A DNA stretch of 64,000 bases, taken from assembly GCA_023052935.1 (NCBI GenBank), contig CM041298.1, positions 17,157,371-17,221,370 on the forward strand, read 5' to 3'. The translations under genes and the position numbers were made by a program. Each line of letters starts with the position of its first letter. Position 1 is the first letter of the stretch. The notes beneath the pieces are model-generated. The model saw nothing but the letters and a program-made list of their open reading frames with translations. It was not told the DNA's origin and ran no database searches. Of the stretch, positions 1 through 56,226 are shown piece by piece. This stretch comes from Piezodorus guildinii (lineage: Eukaryota; Arthropoda; Insecta; Hemiptera; Pentatomidae).

Positions 1-1116
1 GTTTCTGACCATCAGCGAGACTGGGACCAATATCTTCATCTGTTCCTGCTAGCCTATCGTAGTTCAGTCAATGAAACGACAGGGCAGACCCCCGCCAATG
101 TCGTGTTCGGTAGAGAACTACGCTTGCCTTGCGATCTGAAATTCGGTTTCAAGCCTGATGAGGAGGTCGCCGGAGAAGACTACGTCACGAACCTACGGAA
201 GCGAATGAACACTATTCACGAGAAGGTTCGCACAAACATCCAGGGAGCAAGTGACAGAATGAAGGAGCGTTACGACATCAAGGCAGAGAAAGGTGGCTTC
301 CAACCTGGAGACTTGGTCTGGCTACACGATCCTCGAAGAAGGCAAGGCTACTCACCGAAACTTCAAAACTCCTGGGACGGACCGTATGAGGTCATCAAGA
401 GGATCAATGATGTCATCTATAGGATCAGGAAGCAGCCCAAAGGAAAACCCAAGGTAGTCCATTTCAACCGATTGGCTCCATACAAGGGAAACCATGGCCC
501 TACAGAGGAACAGCAAGTGAGGAACCTCACCGACAAGGACCTAACTCCCCATCCTAAGGCGCCAGACTCCCTTAGGGTAACGCAGACAGTTTACAGAGAC
601 ATATTCTCGTTACCGGTAGACTATGCTCTAGCACATTGTGTCGCCGAACATCTGAGGAATTCCCGGGGGATTGCGACGGTCTTCAGGAAGAAGTTCGCTG
701 GAATTGAAGAGCTGGAACGCCAGGGACCAAGAGTTGGGAAGACTCTCCATCAAGAGCATGAAGGCCGGCACCTGTTTTACTTGGTTACCAAGAGTTCATC
801 AGAGCAGAAGCCGACATACGACACACTGCGCCGGAGTCTTGACGACCTGCGGAGAAAGCTTCTGGAACTGCGTGTCACCAAGCTCGCCATCCCGAAGTTG
901 GGTTGTGGATACGATGGCCTGGAGTGGAGGATTGTCAGGAACATTGTAGAAGAGACGTTCGCCAACTCTGGAGTCATCATAATGGTATGCACGTTCAACC
1001 CCTGGAAAGACAAAACACCTACATCGGAGGAAGATCAGCATCGCTCAGCTTCTGCAATCTGTGCTCTGGGGCAGAGCACGTCTAAGGAGGGGGTAGTGCT
1101 ACGGTCAAGACAATGA
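1..1116 (+). CDS. Pol C-terminus: integrase tail fused to TARG1-like macrodomain (5' partial)
   Basis: Open in frame from base 1 to the stop at 1114-1116, which lies 18 nt inside the LTR. The first part is the end of an integrase catalytic core (LLAYRSSVNETTGQTPANVV) followed by a GPY/F-type C-terminal region (SWDGPYEVIKRI at about 370-408). From about 575 to 1010 the protein reads as a macrodomain of the TARG1/OARD1 type: DYALAHCVAEHLR, RGIATVFRKKF, LFYLVTK, KPTYDTLRRSL, IPKLGCGYDGLEW. The two residues catalytic in human TARG1, a lysine (codon 790-792) and an aspartate (codon 913-915), are present. Family members remove ADP-ribose from acidic residues; activity here is inferred. This frame is intact, whereas copy 2 carries a frameshift. 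The true start is upstream of the window. Integrase assignment is very secure and the macrodomain assignment strong. Confidence 0.93.
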   Translation, partial: VSDHQRDWDQYLHLFLLAYRSSVNETTGQTPANVVFGRELRLPCDLKFGFKPDEEVAGEDYVTNLRKRMNTIHEKVRTNIQGASDRMKERYDIKAEKGGFQPGDLVWLHDPRRRQGYSPKLQNSWDGPYEVIKRINDVIYRIRKQPKGKPKVVHFNRLAPYKGNHGPTEEQQVRNLTDKDLTPHPKAPDSLRVTQTVYRDIFSLPVDYALAHCVAEHLRNSRGIATVFRKKFAGIEELERQGPRVGKTLHQEHEGRHLFYLVTKSSSEQKPTYDTLRRSLDDLRRKLLELRVTKLAIPKLGCGYDGLEWRIVRNIVEETFANSGVIIMVCTFNPWKDKTPTSEEDQHRSASAICALGQSTSKEGVVLRSRQ

Positions 1117-1658
1117 CGGGTGGACCACGCCTGGAGGGGCCTAGATGAGGCTAGAGACTTCTGGACCTGGACAGTCCTCGAAGTGCCTGGAAAGGCCCAC
1201 CACCCTACCTGCGCCCGGGTCTAGAAGATTCGGCGGTGGTACAAATAGCTGTCCCCTGAGTCTAGGTGAGTCAGTCTTAATCCGGCTCAACAAGCATCTG
1301 GGATGTATCAGTGAACAGTGACAGTGAACCGTTCGTGACAGTGTGACAGTGTAGTGAAACTGTGTGTCAGTATTGTGATAACCGGTCGGTGGGAAATTAG
1401 AAGACTGTAGTTTATATAAAACTTATAGTTGTAAGTTTTAGAATAAATCTAGCATATTGTATAAATTTACGTAAGTAGTTTAATTGTTAGGAATACCTGA
1501 TTTTATATGTATACTGTTTAGTAGTAAGCTGGTAATTCCATTATTATTGTTAATATAGTGGTTAGTAATCCCTTTGTATTTTGTGTTTTCTGTATTAATA
1601 AACATCTGTAATTTGTAAACTGGAGTAGTTCATTTCTCACACCCCGTAGCCCGTAACA
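1097..1658 (+). repeat. 3' LTR of copy 1
   Basis: 562 bp, begins TGCTACGG and ends CCCGTAACA, giving TG...CA termini. It matches both LTRs of the complete element (51861-52413, 55570-56122) with scattered substitutions and small indels. A TATA-like run lies near 1411 and an AATAAA poly(A) signal near 1599. A purine tract ends a few bases upstream of 1097. Confidence 0.95.
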
Positions 1659-8631: not shown

Positions 8632-9481
8632 GCAAAATTAATGCAGGTTTCCTCTATTGCAATATCTTAATTCCAATTGTGTAAACAAAGCTAATCCTTA
8701 CCCTCTCTTTCACCATGAATTTGTTTAGTAAAATCGTTTTGTTCAGTGTGTTCAAAGGTCTTGAATCGAAAATGTCAAAGTGCGATTTTCGTCAAATTTA
8801 TTTTTACGAATTTAAATTAGGGCGCAGCGCTGCGCAAACGGCTCGTAATATTAATGAAGTGTGGGGTCAGGGGGCTATTAATGAGTGCACGGTGCAGCGT
8901 TGGTTCCAGAAGTTTCGCAGAGGAGATTTCGACCTCGAAGACAAGGAAGGTCGGGGCCGTCATCTTGCTCTGGACAACGACCAGCTGAGGTCAAAAGTGG
9001 AAGAAGACCCAACCAAAACCACACGAGAAATGGCGGCGGAACTCGGAACTCAAAAATTGCAACGTCTTTGCCCAGCATTGATGAATCGGAAGGGGCCGAT
9101 CCTGCTCCACGATAACGCCAGACCACACGTTGCACAACCAACGCTTCGACGACTGCACGAGTTGGGCTACGAAGTTCTCCAACATCCGCCTTATTCACCT
9201 GACCTCTCTCCTACAGACTTCCACTTTTTCAGGCATCTGGACAACTTTTTGAGGGAGAAAAATTTTCAAAACCAGGACGACATTGAAAATTCTTTTCGTG
9301 ATTTCATTGAGTCGAGGGATTCGGATTTTTTTTCTGGGGGAATAAGAAAGCTTGTTGAACGTTGGCAAAAGTGCATTGATTCAGATGGAAATTATTTTGA
9401 TTAAATATATATGGTTAAAGTAAAGATATGGCGTATTTACAATACCTACTAAAAACCTGCATTAATTTTGCATCAACCCAA
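8632..9481 (+). mobile_element. mariner element with intact ends and truncated in-frame transposase (family M2)
   Basis: TA duplications flank it (8630-8631, 9482-9483). The terminal inverted repeats are perfect over about 29 bp, starting TTGGGTTGATGCAAAATTAA. At 850 bp it is about a third shorter than a full mariner. An open frame runs across the internal deletion. Perfect ends and an open frame suggest a young copy that could still be mobilised in trans by a full-length relative (inference). Confidence 0.97.
8715..9404 (+). CDS. Internally deleted mariner transposase (cecropia-type)
   Basis: 229 residues. The N-terminus is the paired-type DNA-binding region (YEFKLGRSAAQTARNINEVW, then TVQRWFQKFRRGDFDLED). 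At about residue 111 the frame jumps to the C-terminal catalytic region (LQRLCPALMNRKGPILLHDN). D133 (HDNARPH) and D168 (SPDLSPTDFHFF) remain with 34 residues between them, the DD34D spacing of mariners, but the segment with the first catalytic aspartate is missing. Full mariner transposases are about 345 residues. Family starts usually lie nearer the internal Met at 8772, so the first 19 residues may not be used. The protein should bind its ends but not cut DNA; a dominant-negative role is inference. Similarity to Hsmar1-type C-termini is strong. Confidence 0.92.
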   Translation: MNLFSKIVLFSVFKGLESKMSKCDFRQIYFYEFKLGRSAAQTARNINEVWGQGAINECTVQRWFQKFRRGDFDLEDKEGRGRHLALDNDQLRSKVEEDPTKTTREMAAELGTQKLQRLCPALMNRKGPILLHDNARPHVAQPTLRRLHELGYEVLQHPPYSPDLSPTDFHFFRHLDNFLREKNFQNQDDIENSFRDFIESRDSDFFSGGIRKLVERWQKCIDSDGNYFD

Positions 9482-25999: not shown

Positions 26000-26149
26000 A
26001 AACCTGGTGCGGGCAACACACGACTTACCTCCAATTTTAAATTAATGAAAGAATTTTCAAAGACAGTTCGAGATAAAAATACGTGAAACTAAAAAAGAAT
26101 TAACTAAATCGAATTTCTATAGAAACATGTGTTTTATTAAAAATATATT
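26000..26149 (-). repeat. RepA, first part (interrupted)
   Basis: Minus-strand RepA start (CCTGGTGCGGGCAACACACG) up to the AAACATGTGTTTTATTAAAA block. It continues at 26731 after the foldback insertion. Confidence 0.85.
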
Positions 26150-26730
26150 GGAACATTTAAAAAAGCACATACTACCTTCCATTCATCATCTAATCACTTT
26201 ATTTCATAAGTCTTTTAACATTTTTTCATCCTAGTCGACGTTTCGGGGTTGTTTCCCCATTTTCAAGATTGAAACAATTTATTTATACTTTCATTATTGA
26301 ATAAAATTATATTATTTAAATATTTTTCTTTGATAAATGAAGCTCAGCAATTTGTCATAACTATTTTAAACTAACTAACTTTAATTACCTTATTCCTTGC
26401 TACAACATTTTTCAACATTGTAGTGAAGGATGAAAAATGTTGTAGCTAGGAATAAGGTAATTAAAGTTAGTTTAAAATAGTTATGACAAATTGCTGAGCT
26501 TCATTTATCAAAGAAAAATATTTAAATAATATAATTTTATTCAATAATGAAAGTATAAATAAATTGTTTCAATCTTGAAAATGGGGAAACAACCCCGAAA
26601 CGTCGACTAGGATGAAAAAATGTTAAAAGACTTATGAAATAAAGTGATTAGATGATGAATGGAAGGTAGTATGTGCTTTTTTAAATGTTCCAATTAAGAA
26701 AACTTCCAAAAAAATTAAAAAAGAAAAGAA
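26150..26730. mobile_element. Foldback retroelement, ~260-bp inverted arms, hammerhead-like motifs, 14-bp target duplication
   Basis: Arms at about 26150-26412 and 26429-26692 are nearly identical inverted copies around a tiny centre. Flanks ATTAAAAATATATT (26136-26149) and ACTAAAAATATATT (26731-26744) make a 14-bp duplication with one mismatch. Each arm has a decayed hammerhead-like motif (minus 26233-26270, plus 26571-26610): stem II GGGG/CCCC and GAAACGTC are kept, but CUGANGA reads TTGAAAA. Arm ends carry ATGAAATAAAGTG. It interrupts a RepA copy. Confidence 0.85.
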
Positions 26731-51829: not shown

Positions 51830-51860
51830 GACAATTGAGACGTTGATTTCCAAAAGGTAT
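51830..51860 (+). repeat. RepD, left piece split by LTR element
   Basis: ATTGAGACGTTGATTTCCAA and AAGGTAT match 62572-62590 and 63257-63286; the copy resumes at 56123. Confidence 0.85.
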
Positions 51861-52413
51861 TGCTACGGTCAAGACAATGACGGGTGGACCACGCCTGGAG
51901 GGGCCTAGATGAGGCTAGAGACTTCTGGACCTGGACAGTCCTCGAAGTGCCTGGAAAGGCCCACCACCCTACCTGCGCCCGGGTCTAGAAGATTCGGCGG
52001 TGGTACAAATAGGGGTCCCCTGAGTCTAGGTGAGTCAGTCTTGATCTTGCTCAAGTGAATGTATCAGTGAACAGTGACAGTGATCCGTTCGTGACAGTGT
52101 GACAGTGTAGTGAAACTGTGTGTCAGTATTGTGATAACCGGTCGGTGGGAAATTAGAAGACTGTAGTTTATATATAACTTATAGTTGTAAGTTTTAGAAT
52201 AAATCTAGCATATTGTATAAATTTACGTAAGTAGTTTAATTGTTAGAAATACCTGATTTTATATGTATACTGTTTAGTAGTAAGCTGGTAATTCCATTAT
52301 TATTGTTAATATAGTGGTTAGTAATCCCTTTGTATTTGTGTTTTCTGTATTAATAAACATCTGTAATTTGTAAACTCGAGTAGTTCATTTCTCACACCCA
52401 GTAGCCCGTAACA
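51861..52413 (+). repeat. 5' LTR of copy 2
   Basis: Begins TGCTACGG, ends CCCGTAACA. AATAAA at 52352-52357 serves as likely poly(A) signal, TATATAACTT near 52170 as a TATA-like element. Five CAGTG motifs lie within 52065-52109. Confidence 0.96.
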
Positions 52414-52416
52414 ATT

Positions 52417-52433
52417 TGGTGTCAGAAGTGGGA
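52417..52433 (+). promoter_or_regulatory. Primer-binding site, tRNA-Leu type
   Basis: TGGTGTCAGAAGTGGGA starts 3 nt after the 5' LTR. It complements the 3' end of a typical animal tRNA-Leu (including CCA), the primer for minus-strand DNA synthesis. Confidence 0.88.
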
Positions 52434-52497
52434 TCATTGTAAATGGTTATAATTTTGGTTTTCTTGTTTTTGTAATTATTGGGCTACTGTGTGGAAA

Positions 52498-55422
52498 ATG
52501 ACTTCTCAGAGTGTTAGACTGAATGATTTAAAAGTTGCAGACTTAAGACGGGAGTTAGAAGAACGAGATCTGGATACTTTCGGAACGAAATCAGTACTGC
52601 AACAACGCTTGCGCCAATTTTTTGTTGATTCAGGGGAAAATCCAGACGAGATTACGTTTGAAAATGATTTCAGTAAGTTGTCTGCAACTTTTAAAAATGA
52701 GTTAAGTACTGTTAAAAATACATTGGAGGCTAAGTTAGGCAATTTAGAAACTAAGTTAATGGAAAGTGTAGATAATAAGTTAGCTGATGTAGAATCTAGA
52801 TTAGGAGAAAAAGTCGATTCAGTAGAAAATGAACTTAGGGTAAGAATAGAAGCTCTAGAAGAACGTATGAACAACCCAACGACAATCGACACCGACCAAC
52901 CCTCTGAGAGAAGCCCTCACAACACCATTCCCTCCGCCAATGCTGGGATGCCACCAACGCACAACACCATCCCATTGTTCGACGGGAAGACACCGTGGGA
53001 GGACTACATGACTCTCTTCGAGACAGCGGCTTCGATCCACGGGTGGTCAAAGGAGACGCAAGCATCAGCGTTGTGCCTAGCCTTGCGTGGAGACGCCTTA
53101 GGAGTGCTACAGGGGATGCCCATGTCGGAGCGGTGCAACTACGGGGAGCTGATAAGAAGACTGGAGATGCGTTTCGGCCATCGCCACATGGACCAACTAT
53201 ACCGTTCTCAGTTAAAGAACAGGGTCCAGAAGACCAACGAGACGCTGCAGGAATTTGAAGCAGATATCGCCCGGCTAGTGAGGAATGCCTACCCAACGGT
53301 CACCGACGACGTCTACGAGAGCTTGGCTATCGACAAATTCCTGGATGGACTTCGAGACCCGGAAACCCAACAGGCAGTGAAACTCGCATGCCCTAAAACT
53401 TTGGGCGATGCATTGTCGCAGGCCATGGAATTCGAGGCTGTCAGGCAGTCAGTCAGTGGACATGCACGGGTTCGAGCGGCAGAAGCGGAGCCTAACGCGG
53501 CCCCCACCATCGAGGACATAGTAGCAAAGGTCTTGGAAGCCCTCAGGCCCCGCAAAAAGGAGATACGCTGTTGGAGCTGCGGTCAACTTGGACACCCCAG
53601 AAGCAAGTGTCCTACCAGGAAGCCGGAAAAGCCAGCAACAGTGTTGCGGACTACGGTCGTTACCGACGGTTGGCAGGACACACAACTGGCAAAGGAACAG
53701 GACGAGGACCCGGACTTGAAACAAATAAGGGAATGGAAGCTATCAGGCCAAAGGAGACCAAGCTGGCAGGATGTTGCTCCAATGTCGAAAAATATAAAAA
53801 CCTATTGGGCTCAATGGAAGTCCATTCTACTGGACAAAGGTCTGCTGAAACGAGCATTGGAGAACACAGAGGGAGATCAGCGGAGACTACAGCTCATCGT
53901 ACCAAAGATTAAAGTGCCCGAAGTACTGAGGGAATTACATGATGGAGCATCTGGTGGCCACCTTGGAGTTCACCGGACATTAGAAAAGGTTCGTGAACGC
54001 TTTTACTGGGCAAACCTCAAGGACGATGTGTTAGATTGGTGCCGGCGGTGTGCAACTTGTGCCGCCTCTAATGGACCGATAAGGAAAAAGAAGGCACCTA
54101 TGAAGAAATACAACGTAGGAGCACCATTCGAGAGAATAGCGGTAGACATCGCTGGCCCTTTTCCTGTGACAGATAATGGCAACCGATACATTCTCGTGGC
54201 CATGGATTATTTTTCAAAGTGGGTGGAAGCTTACGCCCTTCCGAATCAGGAGGCCGCCACGGTTGCAGATGTTCTCGTGAAGCAGCTCGTCAGTCGGTTT
54301 GGGGTGCCCATGGAACTTCATGCTGACCAAGGAAGAAACTTTGAGTCGGCAGTCTTCACCAGGATGTGCGAGGCTCTAGGAATACGGAAGACCAGAACGA
54401 CGCCTCTTCACCCTCAGTCCGACGGCATGGTAGAGCGCATGAACAGGACGATGGGTCGATATTTGGCCAAGGTAGTTTCCGACCATCAGCGAGACTGGGA
54501 CCAATATCTTCATCTGTTCCTGCTAGCCTATCGTAGTTCAGTTAATGAAACGACAGGGCAGACCCCCGCCAATGTCGTGTTCGGCAGGGAACTACGCTTG
54601 CCTTGCGATCTGAAATTCGGTTTCAAGCCTGATGAGGAGGTCGCCGGAGAAGACTACGTCGCGAACCTACGGAAGCGAATGAACACTATTCACGAGAAGG
54701 TTCGCACAAACATCCAGGGAGCAAGTGACAGAATGAAGGAGCGTTACGACATCAAGGCAGAGAAAGGTGGCTTCCAACCTGGAGACTTGGTCTGGCTACA
54801 CGATCCTCGAAGAAGGCAAGGCTACTCACCGAAACTTCAAAACTCCTGGGACGGACCGTATGAGGTCATCAAGAGGATCAATGATGTCATCTATAGGATC
54901 AGGAAGCAGCCCAAAGGAAAACCCAAGGTAGTCCATTTCAACCGATTGGCTCCATACAAGGGAAACCATGGCCCTACAGAGGAACAGCAAGTGAGGAACC
55001 TCACCGACAAGGACCTAACTCCCCATCCTAAGGCGCCAGACTCCCTTAGGGTAACGCAGACAGTTTACAGAGACATATTCTCGTTACCGGTAGACTATGC
55101 TCTAGCACATTGTGTCGCCGAACATCTGAGGAATTCCCGGGGATTGCGACGGTCTTCAGGAAGAAGTTCGCTGGAATTGAAGAGCTGGAACGCCAGGGAC
55201 CAAGAGTTGGGAAGACTCTCCATCAAGAGCATGAAGGCCGGCACCTGTTTTACTTGGTTACCAAGAGTTCATCAGAGCAGAAGCCGACATACGACACACT
55301 GCGCCGGAGCCTTGACGACCTGCGGAGAAAGCTTCTGGAACTGCGTGTCACCAAGCTCGCCATCCCGAAGTTGGGTTGTGGATACGATGGCCTGGAGTGG
55401 AGGATTGTCAGGAACATTGTAG
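52498..55422 (+). CDS. Gag-integrase polyprotein with macrodomain frame lost by a 1-nt deletion
   Basis: Start chosen at ATG 52498 (AAAATGAC); an in-frame GTG at 52489 is unlikely. Order: SAP motif (about residues 8-43; DLKVADLRRELEERDLDTFG), coiled-coil-like region (55-125), retrotransposon Gag domain (160-315), zinc knuckle CWSCGQLGHPRSKC (C358, C361, H366, C371). The frame then enters the integrase zinc domain (H481, H488, C518, C521), the core with D550, D610 and E646 (35 residues between D610 and E646), and the GPY region. Protease, RT and RNase H, normally 700 or more residues here, are missing without breaking the frame. The macrodomain begins at about 858 but is cut at about 881, where copy 1 has GGGGG and this copy GGGG (55138-55141). 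The last ~94 residues are out-of-frame sequence. Confidence 0.93.
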   Translation: MTSQSVRLNDLKVADLRRELEERDLDTFGTKSVLQQRLRQFFVDSGENPDEITFENDFSKLSATFKNELSTVKNTLEAKLGNLETKLMESVDNKLADVESRLGEKVDSVENELRVRIEALEERMNNPTTIDTDQPSERSPHNTIPSANAGMPPTHNTIPLFDGKTPWEDYMTLFETAASIHGWSKETQASALCLALRGDALGVLQGMPMSERCNYGELIRRLEMRFGHRHMDQLYRSQLKNRVQKTNETLQEFEADIARLVRNAYPTVTDDVYESLAIDKFLDGLRDPETQQAVKLACPKTLGDALSQAMEFEAVRQSVSGHARVRAAEAEPNAAPTIEDIVAKVLEALRPRKKEIRCWSCGQLGHPRSKCPTRKPEKPATVLRTTVVTDGWQDTQLAKEQDEDPDLKQIREWKLSGQRRPSWQDVAPMSKNIKTYWAQWKSILLDKGLLKRALENTEGDQRRLQLIVPKIKVPEVLRELHDGASGGHLGVHRTLEKVRERFYWANLKDDVLDWCRRCATCAASNGPIRKKKAPMKKYNVGAPFERIAVDIAGPFPVTDNGNRYILVAMDYFSKWVEAYALPNQEAATVADVLVKQLVSRFGVPMELHADQGRNFESAVFTRMCEALGIRKTRTTPLHPQSDGMVERMNRTMGRYLAKVVSDHQRDWDQYLHLFLLAYRSSVNETTGQTPANVVFGRELRLPCDLKFGFKPDEEVAGEDYVANLRKRMNTIHEKVRTNIQGASDRMKERYDIKAEKGGFQPGDLVWLHDPRRRQGYSPKLQNSWDGPYEVIKRINDVIYRIRKQPKGKPKVVHFNRLAPYKGNHGPTEEQQVRNLTDKDLTPHPKAPDSLRVTQTVYRDIFSLPVDYALAHCVAEHLRNSRGLRRSSGRSSLELKSWNARDQELGRLSIKSMKAGTCFTWLPRVHQSRSRHTTHCAGALTTCGESFWNCVSPSSPSRSWVVDTMAWSGGLSGTL

Positions 55423-55589
55423 AAGAGACGTTCGCCAACTCTGGAGTCATCATAACGGTATGCACGTTCAACCCCTGGAAAGACAAAACACCTACATCGG
55501 AGGAAGATCAGCATCGCTCAGCTTCTGCAATCTGTGCTCTGGGGCAGAGCACGTCTAAGGAGGGGGTAGTGCTACGGTCAAGACAATGA
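55110..55589 (+). pseudogene. Macrodomain part of Pol in the shifted frame
   Basis: Continuation of the macrodomain in the +1 frame after the G-run: PGIATVFRKKFAGIEELERQ, LFYLVTK (Lys codon 55263-55265), KPTYDTLRRSLDDLRRKLLE, IPKLGCGYDGLEW (Asp codon 55386-55388), ITVCTFNPW. Almost identical to copy 1. It could only be joined to Gag-integrase by a ribosomal frameshift at the G-run; copy 1 needs none, so a deletion is the simpler reading. Confidence 0.85.
55557..55566 (+). promoter_or_regulatory. Polypurine tract
   Basis: AAGGAGGGGG ends 3 nt before the 3' LTR, the plus-strand priming site. The pol frame runs through it into the LTR. Confidence 0.85.
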
Positions 55590-56122
55590 CGGGTGGACCA
55601 CGCCTGGAGGGGCCTAGATGAGGCTAGAGACTTCTGGACCTGGACAGTCCTCGAAGTGCCTGGAAAGGCCCACCACCCTACCTGCGCCCGGGTCTAGAAG
55701 ATTCGGCGGTGGTACAAATAGGGGTCCCCTGAGTCTAGGTGAGTCAGTCTTGATCTTGCTCAAGTGAATGTATCAGTGAACAGTGACAGTGATCCGTTCG
55801 TGACAGTGTGACAGTGTAGTGAAACTGTGTGTCAGTATTGTGATAACCGGTCGGTGGGAAATTAGAAGACTGTAGTTTATATATAACTTATAGTTGTAAG
55901 TTTTAGAATAAATCTAGCATATTGTATAAATTTACGTAAGTAGTTTAATTGTTAGGAATACCTGATTTTATATGTATACTGTTTAGTAGTAAGCTGGTAA
56001 TTCCATTATTATTGTTAATATAGTGGTTAGTAATCCCTTTGTATTTGTGTTTTCTGTATTAATAAACATCTGTAATTTGTAAACTCGAGTAGTTCATTTC
56101 TCACACCCAGTAGCCCGTAACA
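55570..56122 (+). repeat. 3' LTR of copy 2
   Basis: 553 bp, identical in length to the 5' LTR and almost identical in sequence (G in place of A at about 55956). Ends CCCGTAACA directly before the GTAT duplication. Confidence 0.96.
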
Positions 56123-56226
56123 GTATTATATCTACTTTAGACAATTTTACAGGAAACGCAAAAATCGGTCATTTATTCATTTCTGGACCAATTTACTTTA
56201 ATTATTATTAATTTACTTTAAGGATT
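56123..56226 (+). repeat. RepD, right piece split by LTR element
   Basis: TATTATATCTACTTTAGACA, ATTTTACAGGAAACGCAAAA and GGACCAATTTACTTTAATT match 62591-62660 and 63284-63360. Confidence 0.87.

Follow-up and report, generated by a model that had tools for sequence, protein, structure and literature searches.

In a 64,000-nucleotide stretch of Piezodorus guildinii DNA (contig CM041298.1; hereafter the window), we identified a TARG1/OARD1-type macrodomain located in frame behind the integrase of a Ty3/gypsy retrotransposon. The domain is real, conserved and unusual. Its in-frame position after the integrase is supported by sequence, by predicted structure, by a second copy of the element in the window, by a natural protein combining protease, reverse transcriptase (RT), RNase H, integrase and macrodomain in this order, and by a clade of relatives. 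The active site kept in this clade suggests that the element uses the macrodomain against, or alongside, host ADP-ribose signalling. We put the probability that the integrase-fused TARG1 acts as an ADP-ribose eraser aiding the element at about 0.6.

The macrodomain and its element

Two copies of the element are present in the window; all their features given below are on the forward strand. Copy 1 consists of the 3' part of pol and the 3' long terminal repeat (LTR), its upstream part lying outside the window. The pol open reading frame (ORF; 1..1116) is open at the window edge (base 1) and comprises 371 codons and a stop codon at 1114-1116. A profile search of this frame revealed the integrase C-terminal SH3-type region at 307..483 (Integrase_p58_C, 1e-14, residues 103-161; SH3_Tf2-1, 6e-8, residues 127-160). 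It is followed by a poorly conserved linker (484..591) and by the macrodomain (592..1008, residues 198-336), which is defined by sequence homology and predicted structure. Alignment places the equivalent of TARG1 Lys84 at codon 790..792 and that of TARG1 residue 125, an Asp, at codon 913..915. The initial annotation of this DNA, made from the sequence alone, had proposed that a Ty3 integrase is followed in frame by a TARG1-type macrodomain. It put the domain at 575-1010, which agrees with our boundaries to within approximately 20 bases, and the catalytic Lys and Asp that it regarded as kept are indeed found where it had read them. The second copy, the LTRs, the extension of the ORF across the polypurine tract into the 3' LTR and the relatives elsewhere are additions to that annotation. 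Downstream of the macrodomain, the ORF crosses a polypurine-tract-like stretch (1084..1096, assigned by eye, with the in-frame reading KEGV) adjoining the 3' LTR (1097..1658; TGCTACGG...CGTAACA) and terminates within this LTR, the stop codon falling 18-20 bases inside it.

The assignment to the TARG1 type was derived from a phmmer search of the macrodomain region against PDB sequences. The list is headed by five OARD1/TARG1 (C6orf130) entries of distinct sequence (E-values from 9e-32 to 2e-31), among them human OARD1/TARG1 (4j5q; 9.3e-32 over query residues 1-144). The next family is the DarG macrodomain (4.5e-6), and no MacroD-named entry is present among the 13 sequences matched in total at E ≤ 1. 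Judged by these matches, the domain is homologous to TARG1/OARD1 over its whole length, and more closely so than to other macrodomain classes. Its predicted structure has the fold of a TARG1-type macrodomain, with 35-38% identity in structural alignments to TARG1/OARD1.

Copy 2 (51861-56122) has the LTR pair typical of Ty3/gypsy elements, with TG...CA ends flanked by a GTAT target-site duplication (left, 51857..51860; right, 56123..56126). Its 5' LTR (51861..52413) and 3' LTR (55570..56122), which repeat the LTR of copy 1, differ at one of 553 positions, and the insertion looks recent. The 5' LTR is followed by a primer-binding-site-like stretch (52417..52433, assigned by eye); no transfer RNA was detected in the 64-kb window, so this stretch is given no primer name. 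The 977-residue ORF of copy 2 (52498..55422) codes for a SAP domain, gag, a weak CCHC knuckle and integrase, and leaves the frame within the macrodomain. A second open frame (55050..55589) contains the rest of the macrodomain and extends into the LTR. The SAP domain (Pfam, 4.5e-9) starts the gag region (52498-53640). In the profile search the knuckle scored below the cut-off and is joined directly to the integrase zinc domain and core. The two copies are 98.4% identical over 1658 bases.

A search with 49 residues of the copy 2 ORF (the linker and the start of the macrodomain) returned a single protein, P0017, from nine candidates. P0017 is 1371 residues long, and in its single frame protease, RT, RNase H and integrase are followed by the macrodomain at 1195-1333. 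Residues 376-886 of the copy 2 ORF align to residues 711-1221 of P0017 at 88%, and nothing in this ORF aligns (at E 1e-3) to residues 1-710, the protease, RT and RNase H region. These three domains have therefore been lost from copy 2 in frame. The Ty3/gypsy order of protease, RT, RNase H and integrase is thus seen in P0017, copy 2 being without the first three domains and copy 1 being cut by the window edge. No chromodomain profile matched the window frame, the copy 2 ORF or P0017, so none of them shows the distinguishing domain of chromoviruses.

We also considered whether the fusion might be an artefact, namely a broken element reading through into a neighbouring host OARD1 gene. The database name 'OARD1-like' carried by eight of the relatives would fit such an origin. 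However, the macrodomain is situated between integrase and 3' LTR in both window copies, P0017 has macrodomain and RT in one ORF, and the LTR pair and GTAT duplication of copy 2 argue against both copies being one duplicated segment. The initial annotation itself had named a chance read-through, confined to one genomic copy, as a finding that would overturn it; the second copy, P0017 and the relatives elsewhere contradict this. We rejected the read-through, the probability of which is practically negligible.

Relatives, common origin and conservation

An initial protein search with the window sequence returned 16 proteins, and an alignment-based search returned 188. Among the matches listed (the best 120 of 188, so that further members may exist), at least 33 sequences including the window are element-like; selection was by eye and relied on the linker, the integrase tail and sequence likeness. 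This set includes at least 11 named species: Macrosteles quadrilineatus, Nilaparvata lugens, Molorchus minor, Aromia moschata, Brassicogethes aeneus, Gonioctena quinquepunctata, Leptinotarsa decemlineata, Diabrotica virgifera, Callosobruchus maculatus, Pyrocoelia pectoralis and Aquatica leii. According to a taxonomy lookup, the leafhopper Macrosteles belongs to Hemiptera and the longhorn beetle Molorchus to Coleoptera; Nilaparvata we take to be hemipteran and the remaining named species to be beetles. In 14 of the 33 sequences, the protein also contains an integrase tail ahead of the macrodomain; this number is probably a lower bound, as several gene models begin inside the linker or the domain.

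Phylogenetic analysis covered 75 of 128 rows (P0001-P0072, P0101, P0108 and the window) and 139 columns, which are few for 75 rows. All 28 element-like rows fall on one side of a single branch (support 100/99; 100% of 200 bootstrap trees). Outside this clade are TARG1 proteins of fly, flea, fish and snail as well as bacterial proteins, the closest outside row being P0025 (80/76). The element-like label was fixed before the tree was inspected, yet likeness of sequence had contributed to it, and the clade therefore does not amount to a blind test. The tree lacks five of the 33 sequences: P0113, which is too short, and P0077, P0083, P0088 and P0100, which lie outside the chosen rows.

The equivalent of Lys84 is kept in all 33 element-like rows. 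Asp125 is kept in 28, replaced by Asn in the decayed P0100 and gapped in four in the profile alignment; one of these four, P0014, aligns an Asp in another alignment. Identity to the window in 11 relatives amounts to 49-86% for the macrodomain, 58-94% for the integrase part and 11-56% for the linker; the tail after the macrodomain, present in nine relatives, is 14-63% identical.

At least eight insect gene models are named 'ADP-ribose glycohydrolase OARD1-like' (P0001, P0002, P0015, P0021, P0048, P0088, P0100 and P0101). They fall in the retrotransposon clade, except P0088 and P0100, which carry a similar linker instead. Such gene models of Macrosteles, Nilaparvata, Leptinotarsa and Diabrotica are probably pieces of retrotransposons and not host genes.

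A CCCH-type finger motif (C-x7-C-x5-C-x3-H) follows the macrodomain in nine of the 33 sequences. Its bearers, with the finger between macrodomain and ORF end, are P0007, P0008, P0009, P0011, P0014, P0019, P0023, P0024 and P0083. Among the proteins scanned, Pfam zf-CCCH reached the cut-off in P0011 and P0014 and stayed below it in P0008 and P0010, the last of which lacks the first Cys of the motif. No finger was found in the window, P0017 or P0003-P0006. AlphaFold2 gave the finger blocks of P0007 a mean predicted local distance difference test score of 35-53, so the finger is not confirmed by structure. We refer to the relatives with the finger as 'beetle-type' on the strength of those that have a species name; P0007, P0009, P0023, P0024 and P0083, five of the nine, have none.

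Viral contigs scanned with the window protein contained no relative. Profile scans with a 16-row alignment found two viral-contig loci and three genome-contig loci with bacterial titles (27-39% identity over all five). In BFVD, macrodomains near the window model occur in Kadipiro virus VP8 (A0A8E0KJF2, 39% identity) and in a Frankliniella flavi-like virus polyprotein (A0A7G9IR66, 33%).

Possible role of the macrodomain

We propose that an animal TARG1 coding sequence was acquired by an insect Ty3-type lineage, in the simplest case a single time, became fused in frame behind integrase, right upstream of the polypurine tract, and has since been passed on as part of the element. Being at the end of pol, the macrodomain would be made in the Gag-Pol product, in Gag-Pol amounts, and packaged, as general LTR-element biology implies, and would travel with integrase to complementary DNA and chromatin. 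Passages of PMC7050489 and PMC8501950 describe TARG1 as an enzyme that releases ADP-ribose attached to Asp/Glu or to the ends of nucleic acids and that also reverses the ADP-ribosylation of thymidine, and they describe the catalytic roles of Lys84 and the acidic residue 125. By the same Lys84/Asp125 chemistry, the element's domain may act as an ADP-ribosyl hydrolase, stripping ADP-ribose off integrase, capsid or chromatin proteins at their acidic residues, or off the ends or bases of nucleic acids. Candidate substrates are an integration complex under PARP-type repair signalling and defence-marked element nucleic acid or Gag. As a result, host ADP-ribosylation, whether repair signalling or defence, would not halt integration.

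Several observations weigh against such a role. The macrodomain is open in copy 1 and frameshifted in copy 2. The copies differ in seven codons (five synonymous and two nonsynonymous differences), too few for a ratio of nonsynonymous to synonymous substitution rates. Several relatives (P0048, P0088, P0100 and P0101) also seem decayed on visual inspection. Decay of this kind, as in copy 2 and in P0100 with its Asn at the Asp position, might indicate a passenger, that is, a captured host gene fragment bringing no benefit. We find this improbable: a deep clade retains both active site and reading frame, the domain is conserved above linker and tail, and decay of copies is usual for retrotransposons.

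One profile result speaks against the TARG1 reading. The initial annotation had suggested a search against Macro and OARD1 profiles and had named the lack of any macrodomain profile hit as refuting; homology to OARD1 proved strong with phmmer, but Pfam Macro (PF01661) scored 16.3-18.2 bits on the window domain, below its gathering cut-off of 22. The same profile scores 32.7 bits on P0003, a member of the same clade, and so passes. Given the OARD1 match, we read the low score as a limit of the profile; a check by Pfam alone would miss the domain. The sole NCBIfam match of the window piece is a partial one to DarG NF048014 (43.6 bits against a curated cut-off of 250). General profiles detect this macrodomain poorly, and a single family member, OARD1, detects it clearly.

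The signal for joint inheritance of integrase and macrodomain was weak in the first test with eight rows (r = 0.18; 5660 of 40320 permutations as high). Correlation was higher with six rows and narrowed columns (r = 0.77; 4 of 720 permutations), P0013 and P0045 having been removed post hoc because their integrase stretches were missing or scrambled. For a second set of seven rows, which included P0003 and P0014, excluded P0008 and covered a short stretch of at least 27 columns, r was 0.85 (2 of 5040). Because the choice of rows and columns followed the first result and the distances are not independent, the test lends weak support to joint inheritance of the two domains.

The conserved pocket residues may also serve binding and are hence no proof of hydrolysis. 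In an alternative function, the macrodomain, placed in the chromodomain slot, would be a reader that steers integration to ADP-ribosylated chromatin or DNA breaks, hydrolysis being secondary or absent. Its position behind the integrase C-terminus is the same as that of the chromovirus chromodomain, and TARG1's macrodomain class holds both readers and erasers (passages of PMC7050489). Nevertheless, we consider a reader unlikely. It would not need the catalytic pair if it only bound, and both residues are kept although the domains of 11 relatives share just 49-86% identity with that of the window. Retention of the Lys/Asp pair thus favours a hydrolase over a domain that only reads.

The eraser explanation also has a narrower form, which we put forward tentatively. 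Insects may ADP-ribosylate retroelement nucleic acid, Gag or particles in defence, and the integrase-tethered eraser, in the beetle-type relatives accompanied by an RNA-binding-type CCCH finger, would be an immune-evasion factor as in RNA viruses. TARG1-like macrodomains are also present in predicted proteins of insect-associated viruses, suggesting repeated capture. On the other hand, the host writer is only hypothetical, and repair signalling at the integration site fits the data equally well. ADP-ribose erasers occur in toxin-antitoxin pairs of bacteria and in RNA viruses; in animals, ADP-ribosylation is not known to bear on retrotransposons. If counter-defence were the true role, the host's ADP-ribosylation would be a hitherto unrecognised means of controlling transposons, and the element would have its counter-measure fixed in pol. 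With the catalytic pair kept in hosts as distant as a leafhopper and a longhorn beetle, the role of ADP-ribosylation could be tested with one small enzyme.

Other window features and comparison with known systems

Apart from the element, the window contains a Mos1-type mariner transposase-like frame (8685-9401, forward strand; HTH_48, 8.7e-18), a perfect 230-nucleotide inverted repeat with 88 nucleotides between the arms (26147-26694), and dispersed repeat families within 33200-59778, e.g. a 222-nucleotide unit in eight copies.

The element is a retroelement with a captured host domain, a kind already known; the fusion of a macrodomain to Ty3 pol is new within the literature covered. We found no description of it in the titles and abstract starts of the open literature, a scope short of most subscription papers and of repeat databases. 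The initial annotation's statement that it knew no description of this fusion needs one qualification: according to a passage of PMC4977317 citing Basta et al. 2009, ORFs coding for macro-domain proteins are occasionally present in fish epsilon-like endogenous retroviral sequences. Compared by that description, the fish retroviruses have additional ORFs, whereas the insect element has a pol fusion.

In bacteria, the DarTG system includes the macrodomain of DarG, whose profile cut-off the window domain misses by a wide margin. Among viruses, macrodomains of the same general fold are carried by alphaviruses, rubella virus and coronaviruses; the window domain is 12-17% identical to the listed alphavirus and rubella virus rows and 15% identical to a coronavirus. 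Chromoviruses are Ty3/gypsy elements bearing a chromodomain behind integrase. An extra domain on the integrase C-terminus is found here too, with a TARG1-type macrodomain in the chromodomain's place. The closest counterpart of the domain itself is TARG1/OARD1 (C6orf130), an ALC1-like hydrolase macrodomain, with which it has whole-domain homology, the fold and the Lys84/Asp125 pair in common. Unlike TARG1/OARD1, the window domain is fused to a retrotransposon integrase. In addition, where TARG1 has the loop GxGIA, the window domain has SRGIA; the position of the first Gly is taken by Ser in 31 of the 33 element rows, compared with 9 of 97 rows representing 95 other proteins.
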